41,186 nt of DNA from Bacilli bacterium (GCA_017617435.1 JAFZWF010000014.1:64573-105758), one strand, 5' to 3'; numbered from the stretch's first letter, positions 15,472 to 22,194 are shown. Notes: a model not told the origin generated them from the sequence alone. Numbers and translations: made by a program.

Positions 15472-16002
15472 TTAATATGTATGGGCTTGAAAATTTTTAT
15501 TGTATTCTATGCATTTTTCTTCTAACAATTTAAAGTCGCAGCATCTAATTCTAATACTTTCGTTTAATAAATTTCTATTATATTTTTCGTATAATTTTTC
15601 AGCTCTAGAATATATTTTTCCTGAGTTACGATTTAGCCACATTATTTGTTTTTTTAATAAATTCAAGTATTTTGTATCTAAAATACTGCTATTATCATTA
15701 TTTAAATCTATCAACGTTATATTCTTTCTACTTACAGGAATCATATTATTAAAATTTATTACTCCAAGATTTCCACCATCTATTTTCAAAAAATCTAATT
15801 TAGATTTCAAAGATAAATGTTTAAGTTTAGGACTCGATAAAGGAGCAAAATACATTAAACTATCGATTTTAAATAGAATACCGATATAAGGTCTTGTCTC
15901 TTTATCATTAAAATTATATGGAACTTTTTCATCAAATTTTCTTAGAAAATTGCAATAATTTTTATCTACCTTAACTAATAAAAGTTGCTTATCTATAACC
16001 AT
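15472..16002 (-). CDS. toxN: ToxN/AbiQ-type endoribonuclease toxin (type III TA)
   Basis: 176 residues, the normal ToxN size. Family landmarks in order: KFDEKVP (22-28), PYIGILF (38-44), FAPLSSPK (52-59; Ser56-Ser57-Pro-Lys59 matches the T-S-x-K catalytic region of ToxN), GVINFNNMIPV, LDTKYLNLLKKQIMWLN and FKLLEEKC near the C-terminus. ToxN cuts mRNA at A-rich sites and is held inactive by its ToxI RNA. Upstream on the same strand are three ToxI-like repeats and, between them and this gene, a terminator, the exact arrangement of toxIN loci. Such systems give abortive-infection phage defence and plasmid or island maintenance. Confidence 0.92.
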   Translation of the reverse strand: MVIDKQLLLVKVDKNYCNFLRKFDEKVPYNFNDKETRPYIGILFKIDSLMYFAPLSSPKLKHLSLKSKLDFLKIDGGNLGVINFNNMIPVSRKNITLIDLNNDNSSILDTKYLNLLKKQIMWLNRNSGKIYSRAEKLYEKYNRNLLNESIRIRCCDFKLLEEKCIEYNKNFQAHTY

Positions 16003-16078
16003 ATTTGTTTTAAATCCCTCCTTTCATTAGGAGGATTATATTATTATAAAATTGAGAATATTGTCGAAGTAAAGAAAA

Positions 16079-16098
16079 AACTAGAGTTTTGCTCTCTA
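16079..16098 (-). terminator. Intrinsic terminator between toxI and toxN
   Basis: CTAGAG with CTCTAG stem (about 16080-16098) followed on the minus strand by TTTTTT. It lies after the ToxI repeats and before toxN. In known ToxIN loci such a terminator keeps antitoxin RNA in large excess over toxin mRNA. Confidence 0.85.
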
Positions 16099-16110
16099 GC
16101 TTCATTTTTA

Positions 16111-16215
16111 GTTTCCTCTTAATGGTGGGAATCACCACTTTTTTAGTTTCCTCTTAGAGGTGGGAATCACCGCTTTTTTGGTTTCCTCTTAGTGGTGGGA
16201 ATCACCAGCTTTTTT
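16111..16215 (-). ncRNA. toxI: ToxI antitoxin RNA, three 35-nt repeats
   Basis: Three direct repeats of exactly 35 bp: 16111-16145, 16146-16180, 16181-16215. Each has the core GTTTCCTCTTA and GGTGGGAATCACC on the plus strand; differences are few and mostly flank the small stem GGTG/CACC. On the minus strand each unit reads from an A-run (AAAAAAG) through GGTGATTCCCACC to AAGAGGAAAC, suiting a pseudoknot with single-stranded tails. ToxN is known to cut its own ToxI precursor within A-rich ends, so the A-runs are the likely cut sites. Three units fit the 3:3 protein-RNA triangle known for ToxIN. Confidence 0.88.
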
Positions 16216-16218
16216 AAT

Positions 16219-16233
16219 GCGTTATATCAACGC
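16219..16233 (-). other. Small hairpin at the predicted 5' end of toxI RNA
   Basis: GCGTT-GATAT-AACGC, a 5-bp stem. It begins at about the position where transcription from the promoter just upstream should start. Possible 5' cap hairpin that protects the RNA. Confidence 0.45.
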
Positions 16234-16239
16234 AAGATT

Positions 16240-16268
16240 AATATACAACACCTAATTCTTTTTGTCAA
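16240..16268 (-). promoter_or_regulatory. Consensus promoter of toxI-toxN
   Basis: On the minus strand TTGACA (16268-16263), 17-bp spacer, TATATT (16245-16240). A near-perfect strong promoter directly before the ToxI repeats, as expected for abundant antitoxin RNA. Confidence 0.85.
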
Positions 16269-16318
16269 CTTGTATAAAATCATACAGTGATTAAACAATA
16301 ATAATATTAATGAAACTA

Positions 16319-17416
16319 TTAATTATAGCATCTCTTATTTAAATAGAATTTATTTTTAGATAAATATTTTATATATCCACCATAATTTGATATAGCGTTA
16401 CACTTTTTTATTTTCCTTTTATTATAAGAACTCATAGTTATGTACACTTTATTATTATTTATTAAAAACCTATAACCCAAAAAATTAATACCATTTTTTA
16501 TTGGTATTATTTGAGTTTTTTTATTAATTACTAACTCTTCACCTTTAACAAATTTATTAATTTCACCATAACAATATTTTAAATAATTTTTGTCATAGTG
16601 AAACAATACAAAATCATCCATATACCTAATATAATACTTTATTTTTAATTTTTCTTTAATAAAATGATCTAGATCATTTAAATAGAATATTGCGAATATT
16701 TGTGATGATACATTACCAATTGGTAAGCCCTTGTTGTAACTGTAATTTGGAATTGAAGATATACTTTTAATTAACATTTCTTTTTCTTTTAAAGTAATAT
16801 TTTTATATTTTATATCTTTAATAAATCTATCTTTGATTTTTTGTATATTATTATTAATATATTCATGATTAGTACTATTAATTATTTCTTCTAAAATATT
16901 AAGCACATCTTTATCTTTAATATATTTATTTAGTTTATTTAAGAGAATTCTATGATCTATTGAATAAAAAAACTTTTTAATATCACATTTTAGAATATAA
17001 AAATTATTATATTTTTGTTTCATTATATTCAAATACTTTTTCATATAATAAATGCCCATTTTAGTTCCTTTATCTTTTCTTGTTGCAACGTTAGCACATA
17101 TTAACTTAGGTTCAATAAGTGGAAGAAGAATATATTCGCTAAATAAGTGATTAATAATTTTGTCATGTAAATTTTCACTCATGATGATTCTAGGTTTGGG
17201 TTTTGTTATTAAAAATACATTATAATAATTATGTTTATATTCTCTATTTTTTAATGTTTCAATTATATATGATATGTTACAACTTAAGAACATATCATAT
17301 TTAATTAATTTATGTTTATATTTTGTTTTCTTTTTTATTTTATTGTAAACATATATGATTTTAGAAGGATCCAAAATAGATTCATAGGATAAATTAATCT
17401 GTTTCTTTTTCATCAT
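16319..17416 (-). CDS. DGR reverse transcriptase
   Basis: 365 residues. Copies the template-repeat RNA into cDNA with errors at adenines. RT motifs: KCDIKKFFYSID (143-154; catalytic Asp145), GLPIGNVSSQ (230-239), YMDDF (265-269; Asp267-Asp268) and NFLGYRF (311-317). The motif IGNVSSQ in place of the QGxxxSP of group II intron RTs is the hallmark of DGR enzymes. There is no maturase or endonuclease domain. Its start overlaps the end of the Avd-like gene by 23 bp, suggesting coupled translation. Codon use is AT-rich like the neighbours. Confidence 0.96.
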   Translation of the reverse strand: MMKKKQINLSYESILDPSKIIYVYNKIKKKTKYKHKLIKYDMFLSCNISYIIETLKNREYKHNYYNVFLITKPKPRIIMSENLHDKIINHLFSEYILLPLIEPKLICANVATRKDKGTKMGIYYMKKYLNIMKQKYNNFYILKCDIKKFFYSIDHRILLNKLNKYIKDKDVLNILEEIINSTNHEYINNNIQKIKDRFIKDIKYKNITLKEKEMLIKSISSIPNYSYNKGLPIGNVSSQIFAIFYLNDLDHFIKEKLKIKYYIRYMDDFVLFHYDKNYLKYCYGEINKFVKGEELVINKKTQIIPIKNGINFLGYRFLINNNKVYITMSSYNKRKIKKCNAISNYGGYIKYLSKNKFYLNKRCYN

Positions 17417-17750
17417 CTTTCTTTATAAGACTATAAGTCATTTTTTTGATTTCATTAAATCTATTTCCTAAAACAACAAATTGTCTTTTTGATATTACTT
17501 TTTTCTTAAAACTTAATTGTGCATAGAAATCTATCATTGATATGTTAACAAGAAAATCTTTTAAATATTTTTGTTTTATTCTCTCTACTATATTTATATT
17601 ATAAGAAAATAAATTTTCCATCATCGTATAATATGTTTTTTCAATATTTTGTTTTAAAACAAATTCATTTTTTGGATAATTAGGAAGTAATTTATTAAAG
17701 TATTCCATTGTTAAAGCAACTTTATTAAGAAGTTGAAACTTATAATTCAT
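17394..17750 (-). CDS. avd: Avd-like accessory variability determinant
   Basis: 118 residues from the ATG at 17750 (a TTG lies one codon upstream). Basic, all-helical protein in the pattern of the Avd/four-helix-bundle family (related to 23S rRNA intervening-sequence proteins). The conserved third and fourth helices read LVNISMIDFYAQLSFKKK and ISKRQFVVLGNRFNEIKKM. In the Bordetella phage DGR, Avd forms a pentamer that binds the RT and the template RNA and is essential for mutagenic homing. It overlaps the upstream MutS-like ORF by 11 bp and the RT by 23 bp. Confidence 0.88.
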   Translation of the reverse strand: MNYKFQLLNKVALTMEYFNKLLPNYPKNEFVLKQNIEKTYYTMMENLFSYNINIVERIKQKYLKDFLVNISMIDFYAQLSFKKKVISKRQFVVLGNRFNEIKKMTYSLIKKDDEKETD

Positions 17751-18141
17751 CAATAAACTTTCTTATTTTATCATAATTTGAATTATCATAATTAATTAAA
17801 TACTCTATACGATCAAGTAAAGTTTTATTAAGTAAATTATGATAATTTTCTTTATCTATTTTCCTTAATAATTCTTGATATCTATTTGCTTTAAACTCTT
17901 TCTTATTTGCTATTTCTTGTCCTTCAATAAAAATGTAATTGATTTTTTCATTATCTAATTTATTAAGCACTTTATTAAGTGACGATAAAGGAAAACCTAC
18001 TCTATCATTTATTATTTTATAATCAAACAATTTTTTTAGAACTTCTGCATCTTTAAAAAAAGATACATAAAAATTTCCTGATTTGAAAAATAAAACATAA
18101 TTTATATAATCATTTTTTAGTTTTTGATACTCATTTTTCAT
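17740..18141 (-). CDS. MutS-domain-I-like DGR accessory protein (MSL type)
   Basis: 133 residues. Residues 5-60 follow the mismatch-recognition domain I of MutS: YQKLKNDYINYVLFFKSGNFYVSFFKDA is the counterpart of the MutS opening, in which Y-x-x-L-K leads into L-F-x-x-G-D-F-Y-E-x-F-x-x-D-A. NDRVGFP and YIFIEGQ match later parts. MutS has Phe-Tyr-Glu at the wedge; here it is Phe24-Tyr25-Val26, so the key Phe is kept and the Glu lost. No ATPase or clamp domains. First gene behind the terminator that follows the template region, overlapping avd. MutS-like ORFs have been noted beside some other DGR RTs; their role is unknown. Confidence 0.78.
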   Translation of the reverse strand: MKNEYQKLKNDYINYVLFFKSGNFYVSFFKDAEVLKKLFDYKIINDRVGFPLSSLNKVLNKLDNEKINYIFIEGQEIANKKEFKANRYQELLRKIDKENYHNLLNKTLLDRIEYLINYDNSNYDKIRKFIDEL

Positions 18142-18157
18142 TACTTGCTACCTTTCA

Positions 18158-18192
18158 AAAAAAATTTCAGGAGACATGAATATGTCTCCTGA
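18158..18192 (-). terminator. Terminator/attenuator between template region and MSL-avd-RT
   Basis: A perfect 11-bp stem, TCAGGAGACAT with ATGTCTCCTGA (18167-18192), 4-nt loop, then AAATTTTTTTT on the minus strand. It ends 17 bp before the MutS-like start codon. The protein genes should be expressed only by read-through or from a promoter hidden within it. Confidence 0.75.
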
Positions 18193-18333
18193 TAATAGAT
18201 GCAATAGAAACTAAAAAATATATTATATTTATATCGTCTAACTTCGTCATCTATTTTATATTTAGGAACTTAATAAAGTAATCCATGGTCAACCTTGTTT
18301 CCAATCCAAATTAAATTTTATAATTTATAGATT

Positions 18334-18365
18334 ATAACATAACATGCAGATGCATGTTATGTTAT
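18334..18365 (-). other. Long hairpin downstream of the template repeat
   Basis: A perfect 14-bp stem, ATAACATAACATGC with GCATGTTATGTTAT, 4-nt loop. No T-run follows, so not a plain terminator. It lies 76 bp beyond the template repeat and inside the predicted template RNA; in the known DGR the RNA beyond TR is structured and binds Avd-RT, so this may be part of that platform. Confidence 0.55.
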
Positions 18366-18440
18366 TACCCCTTCTCTTTACCAACCTTAATCAATAAAAC
18401 TCAGAAAGTAATATATAAATTACCACTATAGGTAGGAAAT

Positions 18441-18549
18441 TGGGCGCACGCCGTAGCTCGTCGTTGGATTGTTGTTCGTCAGATAGCCGGTTGAATTCAC
18501 GTTCCAAACGTTCGCGTTCGCATTATTAGCATTGAAGATGTACGGCGAC
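18441..18549 (-). repeat. DGR template repeat (TR)
   Basis: 109 bp aligned without gaps to the variable repeat at 18748-18856 (offset 307). They differ at 12 positions: 18461, 18472, 18476, 18492, 18497, 18503, 18511, 18517, 18526, 18533, 18539, 18541. Each is T here on the plus strand, i.e. A in the coding sense; none of the 77 non-A positions differ. Changes are 7 A-to-T, 4 A-to-G and 1 A-to-C. Read in the VR frame, TR has ten Asn codons (AAC/AAT). The 3' end (CGAGCTACGGCGTGCGCCCA) is GC-rich and identical to VR, as expected for the IMH-like end. Transcribed with its flanks as the template RNA. Confidence 0.97.
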
Positions 18550-18622
18550 CCATCACCAAAATGACCTAAATAGGTTAACCAAGATATATATTAAATTATA
18601 TATCCCAAATTTAAGAAAAATT

Positions 18623-18654
18623 TTGTGTGATAATGAGGAGTCATTATCACACAA
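18623..18654 (-). terminator. Terminator of the DGR target gene
   Basis: A perfect 14-bp stem, TTGTGTGATAATGA with TCATTATCACACAA, 4-nt loop, followed on the minus strand by AAAATTTTTCTT. It lies 13 bp after the stop codon and before TR. It could also be the structured element that DGRs often need downstream of VR. Confidence 0.75.
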
Positions 18655-18666
18655 TTGCACACTATT

Positions 18667-20682
18667 TTATTGTAGTTTAACTTTATATGGTGTAGCTTCC
18701 TGACCATTTCCAGAGTCATAGAGAACTGAAGATGACAGATTGATTACTGGGCGCACGCCGTAGCTCGACGTTGGATTGCTGTACGTCAGATAGCCGGTAG
18801 AATACACGTACCAAACGCTCGCGATCGCATTACTAGCATAGAAGAGGCACGGCGACATTGTCCAGTAAGTAGCTCCTGTATATAAATAGTATCCACTATT
18901 TGTATTTGAACTACCATAAACACCACCTGCATATGAAGCTTCATCTGCAGTTATTAAACCAACTGGATACCTAAGTTGTCCATTTCCACTACTTCTTTGA
19001 GACACTATACTATTAGTAGAAGAACCTAAAGTAAATCCATCATTTGATTTATTAGCACATTTATAAGATGGTGCTTTAGTTGATGCTGTAAGTCTTGTAT
19101 ATGGTGAATAATAGAAATGATCAGAGCCTGTTAAAGGGAAAGTCTGATTTGTTTTTGTAGTACTTCTATCTCCACAGAAGATTTCATCAGCTAAATATTC
19201 TTCATAATATTTTGATGTTGCTTCAGTTCCATCTTTTTTATTATAGATATTTGTTTCATACCATGACTCTAACTCTGTTTTTATTTTACTATCTTTAACA
19301 TTTGAATTTGATGCACCTTCACTTGATGAGAATAATCCATGATATTTTACTTTTGCTTGTGTTGCTTGATTTTTAACTGTTCCAACTATTTCAGATACAA
19401 CTGGGCATGAAATATATACACTAGTTGTATTATTACTATTATTTTTAGTTACAGCAGTTCCATAACCCCAGCATGTGTAAACATAATCACTTGTGTATAC
19501 ATATGCACTTGATGTTGCACCAGCATCACTTGTTGAATAATTACTAGTATTAGTTGCTTGTGTGTTCCAATTTGTTAAAATACAATCATCACCTAAATTA
19601 TTACACTTTAATGTACATGTTCCTGATTCGTCATTATCACTTCCTGTAAAACAATCTGCATTCATATCAAAGTTTTTAAATAAATAATATTGTTTAGTAT
19701 TATCTATATTTGTAAATGTTGGAAATGTTCCAAGATTTTTTGTTGTACTTAATTCATATTCTGGGTGTGTATATAATACTTTTGCTGGATTATACATGTA
19801 ACCTACATAAGTATTTCCATATCTACCATTTGAGTATGTAGTTGTAACTTGTGTATTAGTTAAACCAGTAATATCAGTTGTTGTAGTTGTATAACTTGTG
19901 GTATCACTAAAAGGACTAGTTTTTATCTGAGCATTTGTTCCTGTATGGTTAGATGATTTAGTACCTGAATAAATTAAACGAACAGAACCATCTCCATTAA
20001 TTCTAACTATTCTCCAATAAAAACCAGCAAATTCGACCCAGTTATTATCTACAGCTCCACGATAATAATATGTTGCTCCATCATCATCTTCTGCTTTATA
20101 TAAACCAGCGTTAGTAGATGTACTTGCAACTGTATTAAAACTTACATTTTGTGATCTATTATTTATAATTTCTAAATTAGCATCAAGTGTTGATCCACCT
20201 TCAGCCATTAAAAGCTTATATGCAAGTGTATTAGTATCAGCTCCATCAGCAATTATAGGATTATAATCTCCACAGCTTGAAGCAAAACCTTGAGGCATGT
20301 TATCTTTAACATCACTTGATGTTAAATTATCTGAACCAGTTAGATAAAACTTACCATCTGTTAAATTGATAACATATGATATGTTATCATTATTTATATT
20401 TATTTTAATAACACCATTATAATCACTACTATCTTTTTTAACATAGTTTTCATTTAAATCAGATATATTTATACATTTAGATCCGATATCATCAACATCA
20501 AAAACAAGTGATTCTTTAGCAGCATTTAAATAAACGAGTGCTTCATCTACTAAAGCATTCTTTTTAGCTTTATTCATTCTTGGTATTACTGCTGTAACAG
20601 CTATTAAAATAACAACAGCTAATATTACAATAACTGCAAGAAGTTCCACCAATGTGAAACCATATTTATTTTTTTTATTCAT
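18667..20682 (-). CDS. DGR target: prepilin-like surface protein with diversified C-terminus
   Basis: 671 residues. It starts with a type IV prepilin/pseudopilin signal: KKNKYGFTLVELLAVIVIL, with Gly8 before the cut and Glu at +5 of the mature form, then a hydrophobic helix to about residue 35. The ectodomain has many Thr/Ser/Cys. Residues 210-230 (FAGFYWRIVRINGDGSVRLI) and the C-terminal block from YWTMSP (605-610) to YGVRPVINLSSS (about 641-652) follow the FGE/C-type-lectin-like layout of many DGR targets. The variable repeat encodes residues about 609-645. Probably displayed on the cell surface through a type IV pilus or pseudopilus, with the variable face as ligand-binding site. Confidence 0.93.
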   Translation of the reverse strand: MNKKNKYGFTLVELLAVIVILAVVILIAVTAVIPRMNKAKKNALVDEALVYLNAAKESLVFDVDDIGSKCINISDLNENYVKKDSSDYNGVIKININNDNISYVINLTDGKFYLTGSDNLTSSDVKDNMPQGFASSCGDYNPIIADGADTNTLAYKLLMAEGGSTLDANLEIINNRSQNVSFNTVASTSTNAGLYKAEDDDGATYYYRGAVDNNWVEFAGFYWRIVRINGDGSVRLIYSGTKSSNHTGTNAQIKTSPFSDTTSYTTTTTDITGLTNTQVTTTYSNGRYGNTYVGYMYNPAKVLYTHPEYELSTTKNLGTFPTFTNIDNTKQYYLFKNFDMNADCFTGSDNDESGTCTLKCNNLGDDCILTNWNTQATNTSNYSTSDAGATSSAYVYTSDYVYTCWGYGTAVTKNNSNNTTSVYISCPVVSEIVGTVKNQATQAKVKYHGLFSSSEGASNSNVKDSKIKTELESWYETNIYNKKDGTEATSKYYEEYLADEIFCGDRSTTKTNQTFPLTGSDHFYYSPYTRLTASTKAPSYKCANKSNDGFTLGSSTNSIVSQRSSGNGQLRYPVGLITADEASYAGGVYGSSNTNSGYYLYTGATYWTMSPCLFYASNAIASVWYVYSTGYLTYSNPTSSYGVRPVINLSSSVLYDSGNGQEATPYKVKLQ
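18748..18856 (-). repeat. DGR variable repeat (VR)
   Basis: Copy of TR inside the prepilin-like gene. Of the 12 A-site differences 11 change an amino acid: eight of ten template Asn become Tyr (4), Ser (3) or Ile (1); Tyr becomes Cys, Ile becomes Leu and Thr becomes Ser. One change is silent. The invariant scaffold (SP, VW, STGYLT, NP, SYGVRP) is untouched. The GC-rich 3' 20 bp (18767-18748) are identical to TR. Confidence 0.97.
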
Positions 20683-20727
20683 AATTATTTCAACCCTTCA
20701 ACTATATACTCTTCTATTATATTAATA

Positions 20728-20756
20728 AGTATACCCCCCCTGCATATTTTTGTCAA
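20728..20756 (-). promoter_or_regulatory. Promoter of the DGR target gene with a G7 spacer tract
   Basis: On the minus strand TTGACA (20756-20751), a 17-bp spacer and TATACT (20733-20728), 46 bp before the start codon. The seven spacer bases next to the -10 are all G. Loss or gain of one G would make the spacer 16 or 18 bp. Confidence 0.8.
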
Positions 20757-20758
20757 TT

Positions 20759-20779
20759 GAAAACCCTGGACTGGTTTTC
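20759..20779. promoter_or_regulatory. Inverted repeat beside the target promoter
   Basis: GAAAACC and GGTTTTC separated by 7 bp, ending 3 bp from the -35 box. No T-run, so an operator is more likely than a terminator. A candidate binding site for a regulator such as the KilA-N protein encoded next to it. Confidence 0.45.
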
Positions 20780-20809
20780 CCGGTTTACAAATGTTTTTTT
20801 TATAATTAA

Positions 20810-21655
20810 TTAGGTATTTTTTTTAGTATTTTCTATTTTATTATTTTGGACTAATTCAAATTGCTTTCTGGCTATGTCATTAAGTTTTATTAAACGCTCT
20901 CTTTGACTTAAATTATTTTTTATTAATTCAGCATTTATATTTTCCAAATTATTTAGTATTAATAAATGAACTAAATCCGTATAATCTCTAATATTACCAT
21001 TTTTAGCAAGTAAAGGATTTTTTTCTCTCCACTCTTTAGCAGTCATTCCAAATAATGCAACATTTAATATATCTGCTTCTTCTTGATAAACAAATCTTTT
21101 TTGTGTCTCGCTTAGAGTTGGTATCAAATCATTTTTTACAGCATCTGTATGAACTAGATAATTAATTTTTGTTAGCATTCTAGATGCATGCCAATCAAGT
21201 TTACTTTGATAGTTTTCATTTCTTTTAAGTCTTTGAAATTCAGTTATAAGATAAAGCTTAAACTCTGGAGAGAGCCAGCTGGCAAATTCAAATGCTATGT
21301 CACTTACTGCATAAGTTCCACTATCGTACCTACCTGATTTGGATACCATCCCTATAGCATTAGTAGAATTAATCCATTTTTGTGGAGAAATCCTAAAACT
21401 ATTGCTACCAGCACTATTTTTAAAGGTGTCGAATTCGACACCTTTAAAATTCTCATTATGAATATTCTCCCATAATCCAAGATAAGAAATTACATCTTTA
21501 TTTCTCATCCAGTTTTGAATTGGTATTTTTGGTTCGTCAGAATCAGCATACCTAGCTATGTCAGTTAATGATATATATTCCATACCATTATGCATAATTA
21601 CTCTTACTTTATGATTATTTACAATTAGTTCTTCTTGTATATTATTTTTATCCAA
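20810..21655 (-). CDS. KilA-N domain protein
   Basis: 281 residues from a TTG start (21655-21653), GGAG 11 nt upstream. The KilA-N DNA-binding domain covers about residues 10-140: YISLTDIARYADSDEPKIPIQNWMRNKD, FRISPQKWINSTNAIGMVSKSGRY and DIAFEFASWLSPEFKLYLITEFQRLK. The C-terminal half is helical. These proteins occur in phages, prophages and gut-bacterial genomes and probably act as regulators or anti-repressors. It stands upstream of the DGR target, same strand, 127 bp away. No phage structural genes are present. Confidence 0.88.
   Translation of the reverse strand: MDKNNIQEELIVNNHKVRVIMHNGMEYISLTDIARYADSDEPKIPIQNWMRNKDVISYLGLWENIHNENFKGVEFDTFKNSAGSNSFRISPQKWINSTNAIGMVSKSGRYDSGTYAVSDIAFEFASWLSPEFKLYLITEFQRLKRNENYQSKLDWHASRMLTKINYLVHTDAVKNDLIPTLSETQKRFVYQEEADILNVALFGMTAKEWREKNPLLAKNGNIRDYTDLVHLLILNNLENINAELIKNNLSQRERLIKLNDIARKQFELVQNNKIENTKKNT
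21418..21449. repeat. Perfect 32-bp palindrome inside the KilA-N gene
   Basis: Sixteen bases on each side of the centre (between 21433 and 21434) are exact reverse complements; the core is GGTGTCGAATTCGACACC. It encodes FKGVEFDTFK, which matches a conserved family stretch, so protein constraint explains part of it but not the full symmetry. Confidence 0.8.
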
Positions 21656-21658
21656 AAT

Positions 21659-21689
21659 AATATCACTCCTTTCTTATTGGAGTGATATT
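21659..21689. promoter_or_regulatory. Inverted repeat covering the KilA-N ribosome binding site
   Basis: AATATCACTCC and GGAGTGATATT, 11-bp arms with a 9-bp loop. The GGAG of one arm is the likely ribosome binding site of the KilA-N gene. Either a protein operator or an RNA hairpin hiding the site. Confidence 0.6.
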
Positions 21690-21740
21690 ATAAATAAACA
21701 AATATATAAAATTTGTCGAATTATATTTTAAAAATAAAAA

Positions 21741-21762
21741 AAGTTCATATTTCTATGAACTT
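21741..21762 (-). terminator. Terminator after the small gene at 21818
   Basis: An 8-bp stem AAGTTCAT with ATGAACTT, 6-nt loop, T7 on the minus strand. Confidence 0.75.
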
Positions 21763-21817
21763 AATTTAATGAATTATTATTGTTGTATCTTATATATCAT
21801 ATTAAAGAAATCAATCA

Positions 21818-22165
21818 TTAATTACGCTTTATAGAATTGCTTAAATTACTTCGTTCTAAAATAAGATTATCTAATCTATCAATTATTACTTTTGCAGATG
21901 CAAAGAATAAGTCTTCATCATCATCTGCGCGCATAATAAATTTAGGATTATTTATTAAATTTAATACAAATCCTTTGATTACAAAAAGTGTATAGTTATC
22001 CAAGTTTGATAAATTAATATCATTTTGTAAACAATTTTTAATCAAAATAAGATTCTCATCAGTTATTCCTAATGATTTAACATCGTTAAAACTAAAATCG
22101 AAATTAAAACTATAAAAAAATTTCTCGAATAACTCTATATCTGAGCAATTATCTAAATATGACAT
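21818..22165 (-). CDS. Small acidic hypothetical protein
   Basis: 115 residues behind GGAGG. Rich in Asp, Asn, Leu and Phe; a DDDEDLF patch at about residues 81-87 (MRADDDEDLFFASAKVIIDRL). No membrane segment or recognised family. Sits between ffh and the accessory island, 29 bp downstream of ffh, so it may be transcribed with ffh. Confidence 0.7.
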   Translation of the reverse strand: MSYLDNCSDIELFEKFFYSFNFDFSFNDVKSLGITDENLILIKNCLQNDINLSNLDNYTLFVIKGFVLNLINNPKFIMRADDDEDLFFASAKVIIDRLDNLILERSNLSNSIKRN

Positions 22166-22194
22166 ATAATTACCTCCATCATAGGCAAAAATGA

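Follow-up and report, generated by a model that had tools for sequence, protein, structure and literature searches.

A diversity-generating retroelement with a modular type IV prepilin as its target in an uncultured Bacilli-type bacterium

Diversity-generating retroelements (DGRs), the accessory protein MSL and pilin-linked DGR targets are already known, and the locus described here resembles several characterized systems in part. The Bordetella phage BPP-1 DGR (mtd-avd-TR-brt) shares with it the reverse transcriptase (RT) group, Avd, an adenine-specific TR/VR pair and a C-type lectin variable domain, and in both an RNA spacer (Sp) lies 3′ of TR, where it is needed in BPP-1. Our DGR differs in being cellular, in having TR before the accessory genes (between avd and RT in BPP-1), in carrying an extra MSL gene, and in targeting a prepilin rather than a tail fibre. 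The Legionella and Treponema DGRs likewise vary a surface protein of the cell with a C-type lectin fold (PMC4891356), although those proteins have a lipoprotein anchor where ours is a prepilin, and the accessory in Treponema is HRDC as against MSL and Avd here. MSL and HRDC have both been described as DGR accessories, and in the case of MSL (PF01624) a protein of MutS domain I stands next to the DGR RT, as it does here (PMC10053308); ours also adjoins an Avd gene and lacks the Glu of the Phe-X-Glu motif. For pilins, DUF1566-linked "putative pilin structures" have been listed among DGR targets (PMC6642488), and PMC12632263, citing Macadangdang et al. 2024, gives Bacteroides type V tip pilins as targets. 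In those systems a lectin-like head at the pilus tip is diversified, as proposed here, and the Bacteroides ovatus protein 4eps is among our structural matches; type V pilins, however, start as lipoproteins and follow another assembly route, whereas our target has a class III (type IV) leader, in a monoderm-type bacterium with PilD, PilB and PilC genes. The Streptococcus sanguinis pilins PilB and PilC also graft a bulky adhesin module onto a small pilin module, but without a DGR, the modules being vWA or concanavalin-A-like instead of a hypervariable C-type lectin (PMC8179133). The original prediction had set the target apart from the best-known phage tail-fibre and lipoprotein targets; this holds in that the target is a type IV prepilin and falls short in that pilin-linked targets were already reported (PMC12632263, PMC6642488). 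What distinguishes this DGR is the type IV modular pilin on which it acts, together with the repeated origin of such targets; a limited literature search found no description of this kind of pilin as a recurrent DGR target.

The window analyzed is a 41,186-nucleotide stretch (JAFZWF010000014.1:64573-105758) from an uncultured Bacilli-type bacterium with a small genome, represented by a MAG of 927 kb in 24 contigs that is 71% complete. A complete DGR occupies positions 16319-20682 on the minus strand, in the order target (with VR inside), TR, MSL, Avd and RT. All parts recognized from the DNA at the outset were confirmed to lie on one strand, each where it had been placed: target 20682-18667, TR 18549-18441, MSL 18141-17740, Avd 17753-17394 and RT 17416-16319. 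The RT carries IGNVSSQ and YMDD and matches RVT_1 (1e-15) and PHROG 1423 (2e-76). A profile of eleven related RTs found 8ub7 (reverse transcriptase, 328 aa), which we take to be the bRT of phage BPP-1, at 3e-42, far ahead of group II intron RTs (2e-22) and retrons (4e-6), a profile ranking that bears out the predicted DGR type and on which a group II intron or retron origin was rejected. Avd matches PHROG 3206 (3e-13), NF033474 (1e-8) and bAvd (5e-7), the last two below the curated cut-offs (NCBIfam, Pfam). The 133-aa MSL matches PF01624, MutS domain I only (6e-10), and so falls outside complete MutS proteins, which have both the Phe-X-Glu motif and the ATPase. Aligned to Taq MutS, it keeps the mismatch-binding Phe and has Val for Glu (FYV versus FYE); this Glu is missing in 82 of the 93 family members with a readable motif and present in 11.

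The target gene (18667-20682, minus strand) encodes a 671-aa modular prepilin with a class III leader, a pilin-like domain and a C-type-lectin-like head with a large insert. The type IV prepilin signal first noticed in the sequence is real by profile: the N-terminus matches Pfam N_methyl (E = 2e-7), scores over the cut-off of TIGR02532, and consists of the class III leader GFTLVEL and a hydrophobic helix. Upstream, at 20728-20756 on the same strand, lies a promoter-like site (TTGACA-17-TATACT) with 11 of 12 consensus matches, a kind of site that shuffled sequences give as often. In the full-length model (pLDDT 79), a long helix at residues 9-58 is followed by a beta-sheet and then the head, the first two as in pilins; a Foldseek search with this model returned no significant match, and the pilin domain matched no solved pilin structure. 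Because that search gave only noise, we modelled a compact homologous head (L123:10590-11492; model m0984d7dde15b, pLDDT 93), which has a C-type lectin fold. Its best structural match is 9qa6, the N-terminal part (40-305) of the Thomasclavelia ramosa IgA peptidase (Z 13.0 over 184 residues); the Bacteroides ovatus fimbrial protein (4eps) matches at Z 6.8, and numerous animal C-type lectins follow at Z 4-5. By way of this homologue the lectin-like end proposed for the target holds up, and VR (18748-18856, minus strand; target codons 609-645) is predicted to sit within a C-type lectin fold.

We judge it probable that a modular type IV pilin has its binding head diversified by this chromosomal DGR. 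Genes for T2SSF/PilC, prepilin peptidase (PilD) and PilB stand side by side on contig C5, and roughly ten more prepilin-type proteins are dispersed in the genome, several of them carrying a large passenger that resembles an adhesin, for example InlB-type repeats; both observations support the pilus display suggested originally. Together with the target, the large-passenger prepilins fit the picture of modular pilins given for S. sanguinis (PMC8179133). We take the target for a surface protein and probably an adhesin, whose head would bind a ligand. The likeliest alternative, less probable in our view, keeps the DGR as described and takes the leader for a membrane anchor only, so that an unpolymerised target would sit in the monoderm cytoplasmic membrane with its head outside. 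No pilus operon adjoins the target gene, and the protein is much bigger than a major pilin, as this alternative would have it. Most other DGR targets of the family also bear other N-termini with a hydrophobic stretch, and on this account the head would need only some anchor. Against an anchor alone stand the Glu5 of the leader, the presence of PilB, PilC and PilD genes, and the known assembly of large modular pilins in other monoderms (PMC8179133).

Evidence that the retroelement has worked comes from its repeats. Over their 109 bp, TR (18441-18549) and VR show 12 mismatches, all located at adenines of TR, which has 32 A and 77 other bases (P = 7e-8). The adenine-specific signature first noted, with 12 of 32 A altered and none of the 77 others, is thereby borne out, as is past activity of the system; the count of 11 altered residues is also right, the remaining change being synonymous. 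In the target these residues are 612, 613, 615, 617, 620, 622, 625, 627, 634, 635 and 639. In its coding capacity, TR allows 19 variable residues and approximately 10^17.2 proteins, and a stop codon is impossible. The GC content is 51% in TR and 56% in VR, and the two end 3′ in a common, unchanged GC-rich tail, GGCGTGCGCCCA, a candidate IMH. Among 69 related loci, 1174 of 1215 TR/VR mismatches fall at A, a share that we do not use as proof because an A-biased filter picked those loci. As DNA, the TR occurs twice in the genome, as TR itself and as VR, and no remote VR for it was found in the 71% complete MAG; a paralogue on contig C13 (63% identical) was considered as a VR of this TR and rejected.

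The DGR is real and very likely functional, and we infer that it is still active. That it is instead a relic, formerly active, whose VR is no longer rewritten is unlikely: the single VR allele from one strain would suit such a relic, but none of RT, Avd, MSL, TR and the RNA is disrupted, and no non-A difference has accumulated between TR and VR.

The DGR lies on an island (15487-22194) that also holds ToxIN, a KilA-N/PDC-S22 gene and a 115-aa ORF. The ToxIN type III toxin-antitoxin (15472-16214) is recognized by ToxN (4e-47), with three 35-bp toxI-like repeats just upstream, and the KilA-N protein (20810-21655) belongs to the PADLOC candidate defence family PDC-S22. Four congeners have neither the island nor a DGR at the corresponding site; there the genes flanking 15487 and 22194 are nearly adjacent (about 50 bp apart in the alignment to congener G003), and the space between them is empty or holds other small ORFs. 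A second, distant DGR occurs in G003 (L064:7437-9133), beside a recombinase-like ORF and with its VR within a 718-aa ORF downstream of the RT. A phage origin was rejected: the best phage RT has 35% identity, the target has no phage match, IMG/VR gives at most 32% identity, and the flanks are core genes. Since neither RT nor target has a close relative in phage records or IMG/VR, and core genes neighbour the island, we regard the system as cellular. The presence of ToxIN and the PDC-S22 gene on the same 6.7-kb island would agree with a role in phage defence, the diversified surface protein serving as a phage-binding decoy or sensor, and links between DGRs and immunity genes have been proposed (PMC10053308). 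We hold this role to be quite improbable, however, as the head is extracellular and lectin-like, without a signalling or effector domain, and in the congeners the island site accommodates small genes of various kinds. That TR and VR result from simple segmental duplication followed by drift, with no DGR involved, is a reading with nothing beyond the repeat itself in its favour and is scarcely credible. It is refuted by the A-specificity of the differences, all 12 of which fall on adenines of a single copy (at the P value given above), together with the RT, Avd and structured RNA alongside.

Turning to the family, related RTs (E up to 1e-30) occur in 127 of its 386 genomes. Among named records, the same RT group is represented by uncultured MAGs of Bacilli/Tenericutes type from the guts of animals, with Candidatus Onthousia and Candidatus Scybalousia among them, and by some Clostridia. 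Around the related RTs we found 69 cassettes with a TR/VR pair and a target; the target N-terminus was readable in 49, of which 16 are prepilins and 3, from Clostridia, carry a leader of related type, ITLIALV; N_methyl matches each of these 19. On the RT tree, grouping all prepilin DGRs into one clade is rejected (p-AU 6e-5), and our DGR is the sole prepilin DGR in its supported set of 20 rows; as a negative control, N_methyl matched none of 14 non-prepilin targets in its RT clade. Among 125 related RTs, prepilin targets thus arose more than once. The head of our target is homologous to heads carried by non-prepilin N-termini and is 61-62% identical to the L055 head, whose own N-terminus is not that of a prepilin, whereas its N-terminal region is approximately 35-55% identical to other prepilins of the same genome. 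Together these comparisons suggest an exchange of N-terminal modules. Three prepilin DGR targets (L203:5802-7850, L217:411-2426 and L186:140-1819) hold two VRs per gene, both matching one TR. The clostridial targets (L191:6041-7507, L208:1165-2496 and L209:6547-7758) start with GITLIALVIT, which resembles a prepilin leader but lacks Glu5, and their TR lies between Avd and RT.

Similar proteins also exist apart from any DGR. Congener G002, in which no RT match was found, has at least eight large paralogues of the prepilin-lectin type, 44-65% identical, which form two tandem groups (L279:6829-15338 and L280:3125-14658), with shorter prepilins bearing other passengers alongside. The VR-equivalents of these static paralogues are AT-rich (29-36% GC where measured, versus 51% for TR and 56% for VR). 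Across the prepilin-lectin alignment the VR region is the least conserved (0.44 versus 0.54-0.85), even though no DGR accompanies the static copies. The head of our target, the L055 head and the static paralogues form one clade; a host prepilin-lectin gene may have been captured by a DGR, or a DGR target may have been duplicated into static genes. More tentatively, DGR heads of the family might have been grafted repeatedly onto host prepilins and, with the static tandem paralogues, make up a pilus-lectin repertoire in which the DGR would make the faces and duplication would archive them. Under the reading that we favour for the DGR itself, a single gene could specify about 10^17 forms of its surface protein. 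Programmed hypermutation would extend to the type IV pilus, a filament that is very widespread among bacteria, and genomes near 1 Mb would have a way to keep a broad adhesin repertoire. With both DGR targets and static paralogues, the clade lets one ask if DGRs seed multigene families.

The spacer RNA Sp (18190-18405, minus strand), 3′ of TR, is structured, as indicated by covariation and a covariance model. Across eleven loci its motif GATTGGAAACAAG never varies, and both sides have changed in 26 of 39 base pairs, which none of 500 shuffles equalled; the covariance model R1 finds one strong place in the genome. Sp remains directly 3′ of TR in four loci with the alternative cassette order target, MSL, Avd, RT, TR (L130, L143, L144 and L145), and several more distant cassettes of this order gave no match to the Sp model. 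The RNA and its model offer a route to DGR templates without TR/VR comparison. The region has 11 terminator-like hairpins where 1.0 is expected. Two of these resemble intrinsic terminators, one between the target gene and TR (18654-18623) and one between Sp and MSL (18192-18167, both on the minus strand); since they stand before TR and after Sp, they point to a short TR-Sp transcript, which would be independent of both the target and the MSL-Avd-RT operon.

For the diversification of a modular pilin head, which we favour, we envisage the following course. TR and Sp would be transcribed as a short RNA ending at its own terminator, and RT with Avd would copy TR into cDNA with errors at adenines, as in BPP-1. 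As in known DGRs, this cDNA would replace VR in the target, guided by the GC-rich 3′ end common to TR and VR, while MSL, with MutS domain I alone, would probably bind or shield the mutated heteroduplex. The prepilin would then be cut by the prepilin peptidase of the genome and placed in a type IV filament by PilB/PilC, or would stay in the membrane, with its lectin-like head outward. A clone of cells would in this way display many binding specificities. As a more tentative extension, in some relatives, with up to four different TR-Sp units in the cassette, several templates might write one VR.

Arrays of two to four TR-Sp units are found in five related DGRs (L096:526-1798, L119:2843-4256, L154:7430-7960, L199:7049-8141 and L120:3106-5294). 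The TR bodies are unlike and the TR 3′ ends alike in L096, L119 and L154, and the VRs of L096 and L119 each fit one TR-Sp unit best. L120 has two identical TRs 2 kb apart.
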